The notes below the pieces were generated by a model that was not told where the DNA came from, did no database searches, and was given only the letters and a program-made list of their open reading frames with translations. Position numbers and translations under genes: made by a program. Below are positions 5,613 to 28,297 of a DNA stretch of 37,056 bases, piece by piece; the first letter of the stretch is position 1, and each line of letters opens with the position of its first letter. Source of the DNA: Actinomycetota bacterium (GTDB lineage Bacteria; Actinomycetota; Thermoleophilia; Gaiellales; Gaiellaceae); NCBI GenBank assembly GCA_005885125.1, contig VAXU01000160.1, forward strand, positions 1 through 37,056, read 5' to 3'.

Positions 5613-6794
5613 TCAGCGCCGGACGCCGCGTGCCCTGACGTGGATCGCCAGCAAGATCCCGACGGCGACCAGGTTCGCGATCATCGACGAGCCGCCGACA
5701 CTGAGGAACGGTGCGGGGATACCGGTGATCGGCGCGATCCCCATCGTCATCCCGACGTTGACGAAGATCTGGAACAGCAGCCCGAACACGATCCCACCGG
5801 CCACGATCGCCGAGAACGCGTCACGCGCGAGCGTGACGATTCGCAGTCCGCGCCAGACGACGAGCAGGTAGAGCCCGAGCAGGATCGACGCGCCGACGAA
5901 GCCGCGCTCCTCTGCAAGCGATGCAAATGCGAAGTCGGTGTGGTGCGCCGGCAGGAAATCGTAGTTCGTCTGCGTTGCCCCATTGACGCCTCGACCGCGC
6001 AGCTGACCCGCGCCGATCGCGTTCTTCGACTGCGCGATGTTGTAGGTCGCCCCGCCGGGATCGCTCTGCGGGTGGAAGAACCCGGTCAGGCGGTTGACCT
6101 GGTACGGCTTGAGGATGTGCACACCTCCGGCCGGGGCAGCCCAGAGCAGCACCACGGCGACAAGCACGGTGGTCGCGGCGACTCCGGCGAGGTGTGTCCA
6201 CGGCGTACCCGCGACAAACAGGATCGCCGCGAGCGCGGCGGCATACACCATCGCGGTCCCGACGTCCGGCTGAAGGAACACGAGTGCGATCGGAACACAG
6301 GCGAGCCCGACCGCTCGGAATGTCGTCCGAGCCTCTCCCAGCTTCTGCGCGCGCTCTGCGAGGAAGCCCGCGAGCGCCAGGACGAAGAACACCTTGCCGA
6401 ACTCGGACGGCTGAAACCGGAAGAAGCCGAAATCGAGCCAGCGCTTGGAGCCGTTGCTCTCGACTCCGCGCAGGATGACCAGCACGATCATCCCGACAGT
6501 GCCGAGGAAGAGAGGCCGCCACCATGCGCGATACCGTTCCGGGTCGATCACGACGGCGGCGACGAGCCCGATTGCGCCCACAGCTGCGTACACACTCTGT
6601 CGCACGAGGTAGTAGTTCGGATCTCCTGCGATGTCGTGGCGCGTGATTCCCGCGACCGCCCACAGGCCGTACGCAACCAGGAGCGCGACAAACCCGATCA
6701 GCAGCCAGTCGAGCCTGCGAACGAGCGCCGCGACGTCGGCGGTCTCGCGCCGTCGCGTCCGAGCTCGACTCCTGGCGACGTAGTCGACGGCCAT
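5613..6794 (-). CDS. rodA: Peptidoglycan glycosyltransferase RodA (SEDS family)
   Basis: SEDS-family membrane glycosyltransferase that polymerises lipid II in the elongasome together with PBP2. The 393-residue product has a basic cytoplasmic N-terminus and about ten membrane segments. Recognisable SEDS stretches are GSKRWLDFGFFRFQPSEFGK, FLQPDVGTAMVY, SKNAIGAGQLRGRG, LPAHHTDFAFASLAEERGF and the C-terminal TGIPAPFLSVGGSSM. The ATG at 6794-6792 overlaps the PBP2 stop (TGATG), so the pair is translationally coupled, as expected for a RodA-PBP2 unit. The frame stays open far upstream through PBP2 in another phase, but those residues are not RodA-like. It is the last gene of the mre block and converges with the small gene. 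Confidence 0.97.
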   Translation of the reverse strand: MAVDYVARSRARTRRRETADVAALVRRLDWLLIGFVALLVAYGLWAVAGITRHDIAGDPNYYLVRQSVYAAVGAIGLVAAVVIDPERYRAWWRPLFLGTVGMIVLVILRGVESNGSKRWLDFGFFRFQPSEFGKVFFVLALAGFLAERAQKLGEARTTFRAVGLACVPIALVFLQPDVGTAMVYAAALAAILFVAGTPWTHLAGVAATTVLVAVVLLWAAPAGGVHILKPYQVNRLTGFFHPQSDPGGATYNIAQSKNAIGAGQLRGRGVNGATQTNYDFLPAHHTDFAFASLAEERGFVGASILLGLYLLVVWRGLRIVTLARDAFSAIVAGGIVFGLLFQIFVNVGMTMGIAPITGIPAPFLSVGGSSMIANLVAVGILLAIHVRARGVRR

Positions 6795-11136: not shown

Positions 11137-13556
<2,420 letters not shown>

Positions 13557-25362: not shown

Positions 25363-26702
25363 GCGGGCTCCTTGCTGCCGGGGGTCCACAGTTTCGTCTC
25401 TGTCTTGGCCTTTTCCTTTTCCTTGTCGGGCGTCCAGATCGCTTCGCGGGCCTGGGCCTGCTCGACCGGGATCCGCTTGACGTCGGCCGCAAGTCGGTCG
25501 AGCGCCGCCTGCATCCGGAGGCTCTCGCGCTCCTGCTCGAAAGCGCCGCCGGCGCGGAGCTGCTCGATCACCTTCTCCGGTTCCTCGAACCGCTCGCGGA
25601 TCGCTTGCTCTACCTGCTCGTCGGAGATCTCGATCTCGAGCTCGTCGGCGGCGGCCTCGAGCACGAGCTCGCCCGCGACCGAACGCTTCGCCTCGTTGTG
25701 GAGACGCCCTACGAGCTCCTCGGCCGAACCGCCGGTGACCTGCAGATACGTGTCGAGGCTCGCGCCGCGCCGCCGCATCATCTCGTCCATCTCGCGCACG
25801 AGCGTGCGCGTCCGCGCGTCGACGACCGGGCCCGAAGGATCGATTTTGGTCGCATCGACCACCGCGTCGAGCACGGCACGACGGAACGCGTCGTTCAGCT
25901 GCGCCTCGATCTGCCCGTGCAGCCGGTCTTCGATTTCCGTTCGCAACTCGTCGAACGTTTCGAACTCGGACGCGGCGCGCGCGAGCTCGTCGTCGAGTGG
26001 CGGCAAGACCTTCTCCTGCACGTCCTTGACGTCCGCAGTCACGATCGAGACCTTGTCGTCGCCGGACTCGAACCGGACCTCGCGTGTCTCGCCGGCGGAC
26101 ATCCCGATCAACTGCTGCTCGAGCTCGGGGACGAGCCGGCCGGCGCCGAGCTCGACGACGTAGTCGCGTTGCGCCTGGCCGTCCTCGCGCACGAGGTCGA
26201 CCACGATCGTGTCACCGGCCTGCGCGGGCCGGTCCGCCGGCGTCAGCTCGGCCACGGTCCCGCGCAGAACGTCGAGCTCCGCCTCGATGAGCTCTGCCGG
26301 CACCTCGGGCTCCGGCGATGGAACCTCGATCTCCGTCCAGTCCGGCAACTTCGGCTTGGGAAGCACGGGGACCGTCGCCGTGAAGCGCCAGTCCTCGGCG
26401 TCGGAAGACGGGAGCTCGTAGTCGAGCTCCGGCCGGTCGGCCGGGCGGATGCCCGTTCGCGCGGCGGCGTTCCAGAACCAGCCGCTGATGTGGCTCTCGA
26501 TCGCCTCGGTGTAGAGCCGCTCCCGGCCGATGCGCGAGACGAGCACGGGCATCGGCACCTTCCCTTTGCGGAAGCCGGGGATCTTGACGCTCTGCGCGAG
26601 ATCCGACGCCGCGTGTTCAACGGCGTGATGGACGTCCTCCCGAGGGACGTCGACTGTGATCCGAACCTTGTTGTCCGGCAGCTCCTCGACCTGGGGCGCC
26701 AT
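25359..26702 (-). CDS. tig: Trigger factor (ribosome-associated chaperone)
   Basis: Ribosome-bound chaperone and prolyl isomerase that meets nascent chains at the tunnel exit. It has 447 residues. The ribosome-binding loop is [10 protein letters not shown] (42-51). The FKBP-like domain spans about 155-240 ([20 protein letters not shown]), and the helical C-terminal chaperone arms follow. The charged tail contains [20 protein letters not shown], with the pair WTP repeated. The ATG at 26702 is supported by the N-terminal strand [13 protein letters not shown]. Cotranscribed with clpP and clpX, the usual tig-clpP-clpX order. The gap to the divergent phosphatase gene is 50 bp. Confidence 0.97.
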
Positions 26703-26752: not shown

Positions 26753-27334
26753 GTGCGGCTGTTCGTGATCTCGCGCCACGGCGAATCGACGCTCAACATC
26801 GAGAAGCGGGTCAACGGCGACCCGTCCGTGCCCGTCGTCCTCACGGAGCACGGACGCGAGGAGGCGAGGCTCCTCGGTCAACAGATCGCGCACGTGCCGC
26901 TCGACGTCTGCGTGCATTCCCGCTTCGGCCGCACGCGCGAGACCGCGGCGATCGCACTCGCCGGCCGTGACATCCCGTTCGAAGTCGAACCGTTGCTCGA
27001 CGACATCTACGTCGGCGAGCTCGAGGGCGGAACACTCGACGAGTACCGCGCATGGAAGCGAAAGCACACACGCGCGGATCCTTTTCCTGGCGGCGAGTCA
27101 CTCGACGACTCAGCTCGCCGCTTCGCCGAGGCCTACCGTCGGCTCATCGGGCGCCCCGAGCAGCGGATCCTGATCCTGACGCACGAGATCCCGTTGCGTT
27201 ATGCGATCAACGCAGCCGACGGCTCGAACGATCTCGACCGCCCGGCACGCCAGCTCAAGAATGCGACGCCGTATCTCTTCGACGGCGCCGCACTGGAACG
27301 AGCGGTGCAACAGATCGAGCGCCTGACAACGTAA
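26753..27334 (+). CDS. Histidine phosphatase family protein (phosphoglycerate-mutase-like)
   Basis: Phosphohistidine hydrolase or mutase of branch 1. It has 193 residues from the GTG at 26753. The RHG motif is at residues 8-10 (VISRHGEST), followed by FGRTRETAAIAL, the acidic catalytic region DIYVGELEGGTLDEY and the second His in LILTHEIPLRY. It lacks the active-site segments that mark true phosphoglycerate mutase, so a phosphatase on a small metabolite is more likely. Substrate unknown. It ends just before a hairpin with an 11-bp stem at 27342-27366. Confidence 0.92.
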   Translation: MRLFVISRHGESTLNIEKRVNGDPSVPVVLTEHGREEARLLGQQIAHVPLDVCVHSRFGRTRETAAIALAGRDIPFEVEPLLDDIYVGELEGGTLDEYRAWKRKHTRADPFPGGESLDDSARRFAEAYRRLIGRPEQRILILTHEIPLRYAINAADGSNDLDRPARQLKNATPYLFDGAALERAVQQIERLTT

Positions 27335-27339
27335 GTCGC

Positions 27340-27442
27340 CGCGAATGCCGGCTTTGCCGGCGTTCGGCGCTAACGCTCGCCGCGAGAGGCCCGACCGAAG
27401 TCGTCATGGCTCGGCGCCAGCCGAGCCGGACTTCGGTCGGTC
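27340..27442. repeat. Structured repeat, family B left copy
   Basis: About 103 bp. It begins with a hairpin of 11 pairs and a TTT loop (27342-27352 with 27356-27366), which also acts as a likely terminator of the phosphatase gene. After a 29-nt spacer comes GACCGAAGTC (27393-27402), pairing with GACTTCGGTC (27429-27438), with an inner 8-bp hairpin GGCTCGGC-GCCA-GCCGAGCC. The right copy at 27556 is collinear: the distance from its first base to CGAAGTC is 56 nt in both. Confidence 0.7.
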
Positions 27443-27444
27443 AA

Positions 27445-27530
27445 TGCGGGCGAGAGGACTCGAACCTCTAAGGGGCGTGAGCCCCACCGGGACCTAAACC
27501 CGGCGCGTTTGCCAATTCCGCCACGCCCGC
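27445..27530 (-). tRNA. tRNA-Leu, anticodon UAG
   Basis: A complete class II tRNA. The acceptor stem is GCGGGCG/CGCCCGC (27524-27530 with 27446-27452). The anticodon stem-loop is CCGGG-TTTAGGT-CCCGG, with UAG at 27494-27496. The long variable arm GGGGC-TCAC-GCCCC is typical of tRNA-Leu, and the T-arm is AGAGG-TTCGAGT-CCTCT. The 3' CCA is not encoded. It decodes CUA and, by wobble, other CUN leucine codons. It is bracketed by the two family B repeats. Confidence 0.96.
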
Positions 27531-27555
27531 GGCGCTAGAAGCGTAGACCGCCGGC

Positions 27556-27645
27556 CGCGAGGGTGGGCTTTGCCCGCACTCGCCGAAGCGAATGGCCATG
27601 GGGCTCCCGCTCGAAGTCATCGCCGCAGGCGGACTTCGATCGGCC
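27556..27645. repeat. Structured repeat, family B right copy
   Basis: About 90 bp. It has a hairpin with a TTT loop (GTGGGC-TTT-GCCCGC), an intermediate stretch, then CGAAGTC (27612-27618) pairing with GACTTCG (27632-27638) around CGCC-GCA-GGCG. It shares the layout of the left copy, including the 56-nt spacing from its first base to CGAAGTC. Stem bases changed in compensating fashion (for example C-G to G-C in the first hairpin). Confidence 0.7.
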
Positions 27646-27697: not shown

Positions 27698-28297
27698 ATG
27701 GAGCTCTTCGATCTGCTGGACGCAGCGCGCGGGCGCTGGGACGTCCTGAAGCATCCCTTCTACGCTCGGTGGGAGCGGGGCGAGCTCTCCCGCGACGAGC
27801 TTGCTTTCTACGCCGGCGAATACCGCCACGCTGTGACGGCGCTTGCGGACACGGCCGCCGCCGGCGGCTCTGAAGAGCACGCAGCCGAAGAGCGCGCGCA
27901 CATCGATCTCTGGGACGACTTCGCCGCAGCGCTCGACGCGCCGCTCGACCGAGCTCCGACCGCAGAGACGACGCAGTGCGCCGAGTCCTGGAGCTCCGGC
28001 GATCCGCTCGAGGCAGCGGCGATCATGTACGCCGTCGAATCCGGTCAGCCCGCAATCTCCGCGACGAAGCTCGCAGGTCTCGTCGAACACTACGGATTCG
28101 CCGCCGATTCGCGCGGCGCCGCCTATTTCGCGCTGCACGCCGAGCGTGACTACGAGCACGCCGCCGAGGCCCGCTCCTTGCTGGAGACGCACGCCTCGGC
28201 CGCCGACGAAGGCCGCCTCGCCACCGCGGCGGAAGCGGCGCTCGAAGGGAACTGGCGCTTGCTCGACGGAGTGGAGGCCGCATTCGCGCGGCGTTAG
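27698..28297 (+). CDS. TenA/PqqC/CADD-like heme-oxygenase-fold protein
   Basis: All-helical protein of the TENA/THI-4/PQQC superfamily. It has 199 residues. It starts MELFDLLDAARGRWDVLKHP, and carries a candidate metal or substrate set: His19, Glu41 and His44 (EYRHAVTAL), with later EERAHIDLWDDF and YFALHAERDYEHA. The arrangement of Glu and His residues resembles CADD-type diiron oxygenases, but I cannot separate that from thiaminase- or PqqC-like members by eye. The start ATG has GGGAGG about 9 nt upstream. It is an isolated gene beyond the tRNA. Confidence 0.82.
   Translation: MELFDLLDAARGRWDVLKHPFYARWERGELSRDELAFYAGEYRHAVTALADTAAAGGSEEHAAEERAHIDLWDDFAAALDAPLDRAPTAETTQCAESWSSGDPLEAAAIMYAVESGQPAISATKLAGLVEHYGFAADSRGAAYFALHAERDYEHAAEARSLLETHASAADEGRLATAAEAALEGNWRLLDGVEAAFARR

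Follow-up and report, generated by a model that had tools for sequence, protein, structure and literature searches.

The tRNA-Leu locus

The window, i.e. the whole stretch of DNA analysed here, spans 37,056 nucleotides and comes from a genome of 2.83 Mb, assembled into 195 contigs and 77% complete (G000). A single tRNA-Leu gene, named from its anticodon tag, lies on the minus strand at 27445-27530, flanked by two genes of the plus strand, one for a protein of the histidine phosphatase superfamily (26753-27334; PF00300, E=2.9e-31) and one, divergent, for a TENA/THI-4 or haem-oxygenase-like protein (27698-28297; PF14518, 4.4e-9; PF03070, 8.5e-8). Two look-alike stretches of about 100 bp, one on each side of the tRNA, had been pointed out in an original prediction. 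On re-measurement they proved genuine, with correct coordinates and shared features.

The left stretch is a unit of two hairpins, called A and B below, located on the plus strand at 27338-27440, between the histidine phosphatase stop codon (27334) and the tRNA-Leu 3' end (27445). Hairpin A (27338-27369, plus strand) has a TTT loop and a recurring T-G wobble, and is of the A1 type, according to a pairing table of 48 distinct A1 hairpins. Hairpin B (27391-27440, plus strand) is an inverted repeat with arms of 12 bp (27391-27402 and 27429-27440), an internal loop GTCAT/G and an inner stem GGCTCGGC..GCCGAGCC; it is faced by the 3' end of the tRNA, across a gap of 4 nt.

The right unit, between the tRNA-Leu 5' end and the TENA-like gene, also lies on the plus strand. 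Its hairpin A (27554-27585) retains both the TTT loop and the T-G wobble, and has an orthologue, without B, in the congener G004. Its hairpin B (27607-27643) is decayed: ATC replaces RTCAT in the internal loop, the inner stem is reduced to 3 bp with a GCA loop, and one outer pair is mismatched. The two TTT-capped hairpins are 75% identical over 32 nt, and counting on the sequence confirmed that CGAAGTC, at 27396 and 27612, falls exactly 56 nt after 27340 and 27556, respectively.

Further copies and their distribution

BLAST comparison of the left unit with its own genome produced 8 further matches at E<=4e-9, and the core pattern AAGTCGTCATG-N(8-36)-CGGACTT is found there 19 times, against 0 matches for a reversed-pattern control. 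The outcome that would have told against the original prediction, namely a similarity with no other copies in the genome, was therefore not observed. A covariance model (R1), built from 38 B hairpins other than those of the window, matched the left B with E=3.7e-13 and the decayed right B with E=2e-6. By DNA similarity, the best other genomic match of the right copy reaches only E=0.0017: with the AT of RTCAT missing and an inner stem of 3 bp, it is barely recognisable in this way alone. B matches of R1 number 30 in G000, 35 in G007 and 36 in G073.

The element is confined to one bacterial family of the Thermoleophilia. Of the order's 129 genomes, 33 have the AAGTCRTCATG form of the pattern, and each of these belongs to the window's own family. 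Over the class, R1 was positive in 16 genomes out of 149: one has a weak hit (E=0.0019), and the other 15 belong to that same family. The core pattern was also searched across 84,980 species. Records titled Actinobacteria or Thermoleophilia gave 48 hits, 34 of them forming both stems, and other records gave 33 hits, none of which does so; named records that have the pattern together with both stems come from assemblies of soil 'Actinobacteria' and of Thermoleophilia. Viral carriage was considered and discarded, since none of the 6 pattern hits in viral contigs has either stem. Only tRNA models of Rfam, and no known RNA family besides, matched in nine element loci (E<=1) and in the window. No description of this two-hairpin element was found in the literature covered, which extends to neither subscription journals nor preprints.

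A run of N is found exactly at the expected hairpin position beside a tRNA-Leu of G005 (L083/L091; G005:C281, about 2800-2870); as this run suggests, copies may be under-counted through assemblies broken by hairpins.

Structure of the unit

The unit spans about 100 bp, in the order hairpin A, linker, hairpin B, with A about 45-50 nt upstream of B (from A loop to B core). On the element strand, the consensus of B is CCGNNNR-AAGTC-RTCAT-G[inner stem]C-G-GACTT-YNNNCGG. The hairpin is nested: a lower stem of 12 bp leads, through an asymmetric internal loop (RTCAT/G) that does not vary, to an inner stem of variable, yet paired, sequence. Triloops close this inner stem in 87 of 130 elements, 69 of the 87 being of the C(GNA)G form. 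Hairpin A is of at least two types, with 48 A1 and 28 A2-like hairpins found.

The compensating stem differences, proposed from the two window copies, are borne out by strong covariation in the B stems. In the B alignment, 98.5% of 722 cells are paired, with double changes at 12 pairs, as compared with 76.4% in shuffles and 36-50% with slid partners; the covariation score is 0.573, versus 0.151 for shuffled alignments, and is reached by none of 500 shuffles. The outer arms differ between loci and fit CCG....CGG. Over the six positions outside the core, pairing is 92.5% Watson-Crick, as opposed to 41% when arms are shuffled among copies; it holds at the seventh position (122 of 129 elements) and drops to 33 of 129 (26%) at the eighth. 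Near-core variants (AAATC/GATTT, GAATC/GATTC and GAGTC/GACTC) stand beside tRNAs in congeners, within a sample of 113 tRNA genes enriched for element-bearing loci, and indicate that the 'fixed' core pairs covary too.

Some related structures were also noted. After two more tRNAs of G000 (L298 and L311; G000:C27 and C166), 12-bp nested hairpins are present, with altered cores (AAAAC; AAGTC lacking RTCAT), and are probably decayed B. At L023 (G000:C46, about 5933-6083) there are two TTT-loop hairpins with their flanks, at a spacing of 134 bp, one of them in an apparently duplicated gene start. At L212 (G007:C111, near 12535-12590) tandem copies of half a hairpin (CCGTTTGAAGTCCGGCTCTTGG), repeated in units of about 22 nt, separate B from a tRNA-Lys.

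Folding as DNA or as RNA

A hairpin folding as gene-sense RNA should show more G-U than A-C oppositions. B does not, which argues against such an RNA: in the sense strand of its lower stem, G-U were counted 19 times and A-C 25 times (p=0.45), on hairpins with at least 7 of 10 outer pairs. On distinct arms, the strand preference of B alone is not significant (30 vs 18, p=0.11). In hairpin A, the element strand has 37 oppositions of G-T type versus 5 of A-C type, and the former would be A-C in the sense strand; as one position accounts for 20 of the 37, about half of the excess, these cells are not independent, and 15 versus 5 are left without the commonest position. GNA and GNNA loops with G-C closure are reported to make extraordinarily stable DNA mini-hairpins (PMC4686876). 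Mismatch types and loops argue, indirectly, against gene-sense RNA and in favour of DNA as the molecule that folds; at least for A, the element strand would be the preferred one.

Position with respect to genes

Placement was analyzed on 130 distinct elements, leaving out loci L106-L186 (named contigs, many of which represent the same genomes). B abuts the 3' ends of genes, in one orientation. In 35 elements the 3' end of a tRNA or tmRNA (3 tmRNA) faces B within 40 nt, and in 33 of these the stem foot is at 1-6 nt from that end; tRNAs of opposite direction within 40 nt of B are only 2. Protein genes were assigned by a home-made procedure, applying a crude GC3 filter to the reading frames ending near B. 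Fifty elements could be assigned to such a gene: the stop codon is found at -8 to +6 nt from B in 43 of them, either inside the hairpin (13) or at 0-6 nt (30), and farther in 7. Where coding sequence overlaps B, a TGA is formed by the B arm and the first A of the core. By this filter, 45 elements have no gene-end assignment, and some of them adjoin gene starts.

A Pfam look-up of 10 of the 50 protein genes gave matches for 9, including GreA, a principal-type sigma factor, SecA, an M41 peptidase with AAA domain, YchF, Dus and cytochrome c. The greA gene carries the element in G009, G022, G064 and G068.

The tRNA genes of G000, G007 and G008 were compared with 73 listed matches out of the 94 obtained by covariance model. 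Among the matches listed, B is at 0-4 nt from at least 22 of the 132 tRNAs, and, within 200 nt, 13 tRNAs turn their 5' end and none the 3' end toward A. Among these 73 elements the constant feature is B at the tRNA 3' end, and not a pair flanking the tRNA; the bracketing of the tRNA in the window is thus incidental, and only the left of the two window copies obeys the gene-end rule.

These data bear on the idea that the repeats are a processing signal for tRNAs, or the two ends of one mobile, tRNA-carrying unit. Such a reading would suit the arrangement in the window and the 22 tRNAs just mentioned. It is contradicted, as a general rule, by the ends of protein genes: at least 43 stop codons lie at -8 to +6 nt from B, and the hairpin follows greA, the principal sigma factor gene, secA, ftsH and others, which also leaves the processing signal first suggested unsupported as a general role. 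Moreover, the right window copy is decayed, with A only in G004, and in congeners the number of units at the tRNA-Leu region ranges from zero to two, all on the same side. We hold a tRNA-specific origin or function to be very improbable.

A different reading of the same positions is that of a lineage-specific terminator, or 3'-end stabiliser, devoid of U-tract: a gene-sense RNA hairpin ending tRNA, tmRNA and mRNA, and spread by recombination. It agrees with the orientation and distances described, both for tRNAs and tmRNAs and for stop codons, with the lack of tRNA 3' ends facing A within 200 nt, among the matches listed, and with the presence of the element after greA, sigma factor, secA and ftsH. 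Among twenty G000 tRNAs chosen for the absence of an exact B, ordinary U-tract terminators take the place of B at L302, L304 and L306. Hairpins without U-tract are described as common past stop codons (PMC8355165).

On the other hand, U-tracts are absent from either side of B, four or more T in the first 7 nt being found in 17 of 130 cases on the sense side and 7 of 129 on the other. The mismatch counts reported above, with sense-strand G-U no commoner than A-C and, in hairpin A, a retained pair which would be an A-C mismatch in sense RNA, speak against a terminator, for which, moreover, a stem of exactly 12 bp and an unvarying RTCAT/G loop would both be unnecessary; and most of the tRNAs examined do without B, those having it in the three genomes being 22 of 132, among the matches listed. 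We regard a terminator of this kind as unlikely on balance, with an appreciable chance of being correct. Of the 'mobile or terminator-like' nature first proposed, the terminator part is matched by position, though not by a U-tract.

A few tRNA-related arrangements deserve separate mention. At L046 (G000:C182) and L019 (G000:C35), B adjoins sequences resembling a tRNA 3' half that ARAGORN does not call, either fragments or interrupted tRNAs. At L038 (G000:C158, about 25412-25500) and at G000:C158:32756-32828, the neighbour of B is the 3' fragment of a tRNA; the fragments share their last bases with a whole tRNA about 7 kb off on the same contig, an arrangement expected if an island inserted into a tRNA with B already in place. 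At L336/L332 (G065:C26, about 77690-77900), about 105 nt containing other hairpins come after a tRNA-His, then a second GCCACC (the last bases of the tRNA) and then B, which looks like a different short insertion at the same tRNA-His end.

Spread, gain and loss

Of 127 elements, 105 differ in their flanks from their nearest relative, the two being unrelated there (for 36 of the 105, this relative belongs to the same genome), which indicates that the unit spreads. Within the tRNA sample, enriched for element-bearing loci, the tRNA-Leu and tRNA-Arg copies of the window's genome have an identical 50-nt B. Occupied and empty sites are found among relatives: the greA end has A and B in G068 and 11-12 unrelated bases in G030, and at another comparison the unit is present in G022 and absent in G065. 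In the genus, G000 and G007 have one unit at the tRNA-Leu region, whereas G008 has two in tandem (head-to-tail, as read in the sequence); the unit is truncated in G004, and G002 has either no unit or a remnant. Unrelated sites and presence or absence among congeners uphold the mobile part of the first proposal.

The outer arms were compared in 26 close pairs, taken from the top of the nearest-relative list: 150 of 182 arm positions are identical, with 18 one-sided and 13 compensated changes. Such changes between close relatives indicate that pairing is actively maintained, which would be needless for inert copies.

The arms also bear on whether B could be a REP-like hairpin that entered the loop of palindromes already present at gene ends, so that the outer arms would be those of the target. 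Arms varying by locus within CCG....CGG would agree with this, as would a few uninterrupted palindromes of 12-14 bp and the same make, following tRNAs in G072 and G075, and the GTAG-23 REPs of Thermomicrobium roseum, reported inside CCGSSCC(n3,4)GGSSCGG palindromes (PMC3733652). However, close relatives at unrelated sites mostly share their arms, as just described; uninterrupted palindromes are rare (43 with arms of at least 10 in 677 kb, 1 with arms ending in RTC) and may be internal deletions of B; and the empty greA end of G030, read by eye, has no palindrome. We judge an origin of the arms from the target improbable.

Copying of the outer arms from the target, first inferred from the coding overlaps, was likewise dropped in view of elements e99 and e127 and of the last greA codons, which differ between G068 and G030. 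The two elements follow unrelated genes in two genomes with the same arm, both ending in KR-stop, so that the element itself seems to supply the gene end.

No mobilising enzyme was found at the Y1_Tnp loci examined: none of 20 such loci, in eight element-bearing genomes, is flanked by B (at least 4 outer pairs). Y1_Tnp matches occur in 91 of the 129 genomes of the order, both with and without the element, and are absent from G018, G019 and G030, where the element is present. A RAYT-type partner was rejected on these grounds.

Comparison with known families

Miniature elements derived from IS200/IS605 have subterminal hairpins on one strand, lack terminal inverted repeats and are moved by a Y1 transposase; the element described here has two hairpins in fixed order, and a Y1 partner was not found at the 20 loci. 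The TRIT motif of Mycobacterium tuberculosis, attributed to the RNIE work of Gardner and colleagues of 2011, is reportedly a lineage-specific conserved hairpin 3' of genes, and may be likened to our element in this respect; our element matches no Rfam model. Inverted DNA uptake sequences of Neisseria and Haemophilus, paired copies of a fixed short word, serve as terminators. They resemble the element in being sequence-constrained repeats that form hairpins at gene ends, whereas here most stem positions vary freely.

CGTC-tagged REPs are closer. They are described as having a stem of 8-9 bp starting with a paired A-T, loops of 4-5 nt, an unpaired CCA tail and a terminal unpaired CGTC (or TGTC, CCTC), and as occurring mostly in head-to-head dimers (Di Nocera et al. 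2013, PMC3733652); the term Actinobacteria is not found in PMC3733652. Shared with them are the short dispersed palindromes near ORF 3' ends, the lack of a dedicated transposase found and a patchy presence among relatives. Their tag may have a counterpart in the C-R-T-C-A-T found here 5' of the inner stem, which is CGTC when R=G: the loop word reads CGTCAT or CATCAT, with its first C paired in the lower stem. Here, in contrast with that description, the AT is unpaired, the inner stem starts with G-C, triloops prevail (87 of 130) and are mostly GNA, the CGGACTT on the 3' side is paired, with no unpaired CCA, and the flanks pair into the 12-bp lower stem. Since paired AT, loop size and CCA tail all differ, the element was not classed with these REPs.

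GTAG REPs and REPINs associated with RAYT share hairpin DNA, dispersed intergenic copies and ends able to supply a stop codon, as the element described here seems to do; here the GTAG tag is missing, with CCG at the stem foot, and none of the 20 Y1-type loci examined is flanked by B. The GTAG-23 REPs of T. roseum are similar in nesting a REP-like hairpin within a palindrome with 7-nt arms, starting with CCG and ending with CGG, and different for the GTAG tag and the large clustered blocks (PMC3733652), while here the arms mostly travel with the element. The element is set apart from the REPs described there by a nested stem of exactly 12 bp, by its single orientation and by its presence at tRNA and tmRNA ends.

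Discussion

With a little better than even confidence, we favour the view that the two window stretches are one intact and one decayed copy of a miniature palindromic element resembling REPs, which would be copied in the form of DNA and retained where genes end; a new, untyped element of this kind is the best reading of the data. The unit would be propagated as folded single-stranded DNA by an enzyme acting in trans, which would read the internal loop and the 12-bp stem. Gene ends would be the only places where the element is tolerated or of use, at times by providing the stop codon; judging from its position, it would probably double there as a barrier to transcription or to exonucleases for the preceding gene.

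No enzyme was found at the loci examined, and 45 of the 130 elements are unassigned to a gene end, some being next to gene starts; both points weigh against this explanation. So do the very tight spacing from stop codons and the persistence at the same genes in several genera, as for greA, for which a selected function would account at least as well as mobility by itself, and the active maintenance of pairing between close relatives.

A bolder version, to which we assign a rather low probability, is that of a new class of gene-end element, a single-stranded DNA hairpin, recognised through its 12-bp stem and RTCAT/G loop, that an enzyme would put directly at the 3' ends of transcription units, in one orientation. 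If this were true, new gene ends, whether stop codons or tRNA and tmRNA ends, would gain a ready-made boundary.

The findings add to REP-like elements a well-bounded repeat family of the Thermoleophilia, supported by covariation. Its placement, at 3-4 nt from tRNA ends and often within the stop codon, is sharper than the distance of less than 20 bp from ORF 3' ends, given for most members of two other REP families, whose ends can supply stop codons as well (PMC3733652). Sites with and without the unit, copies in decay and arms with compensating changes all occur within a single genus. An old question thereby becomes testable in one system: are palindromes of the REP type parasites that gene ends tolerate, or are they signals of gene ends that can move?
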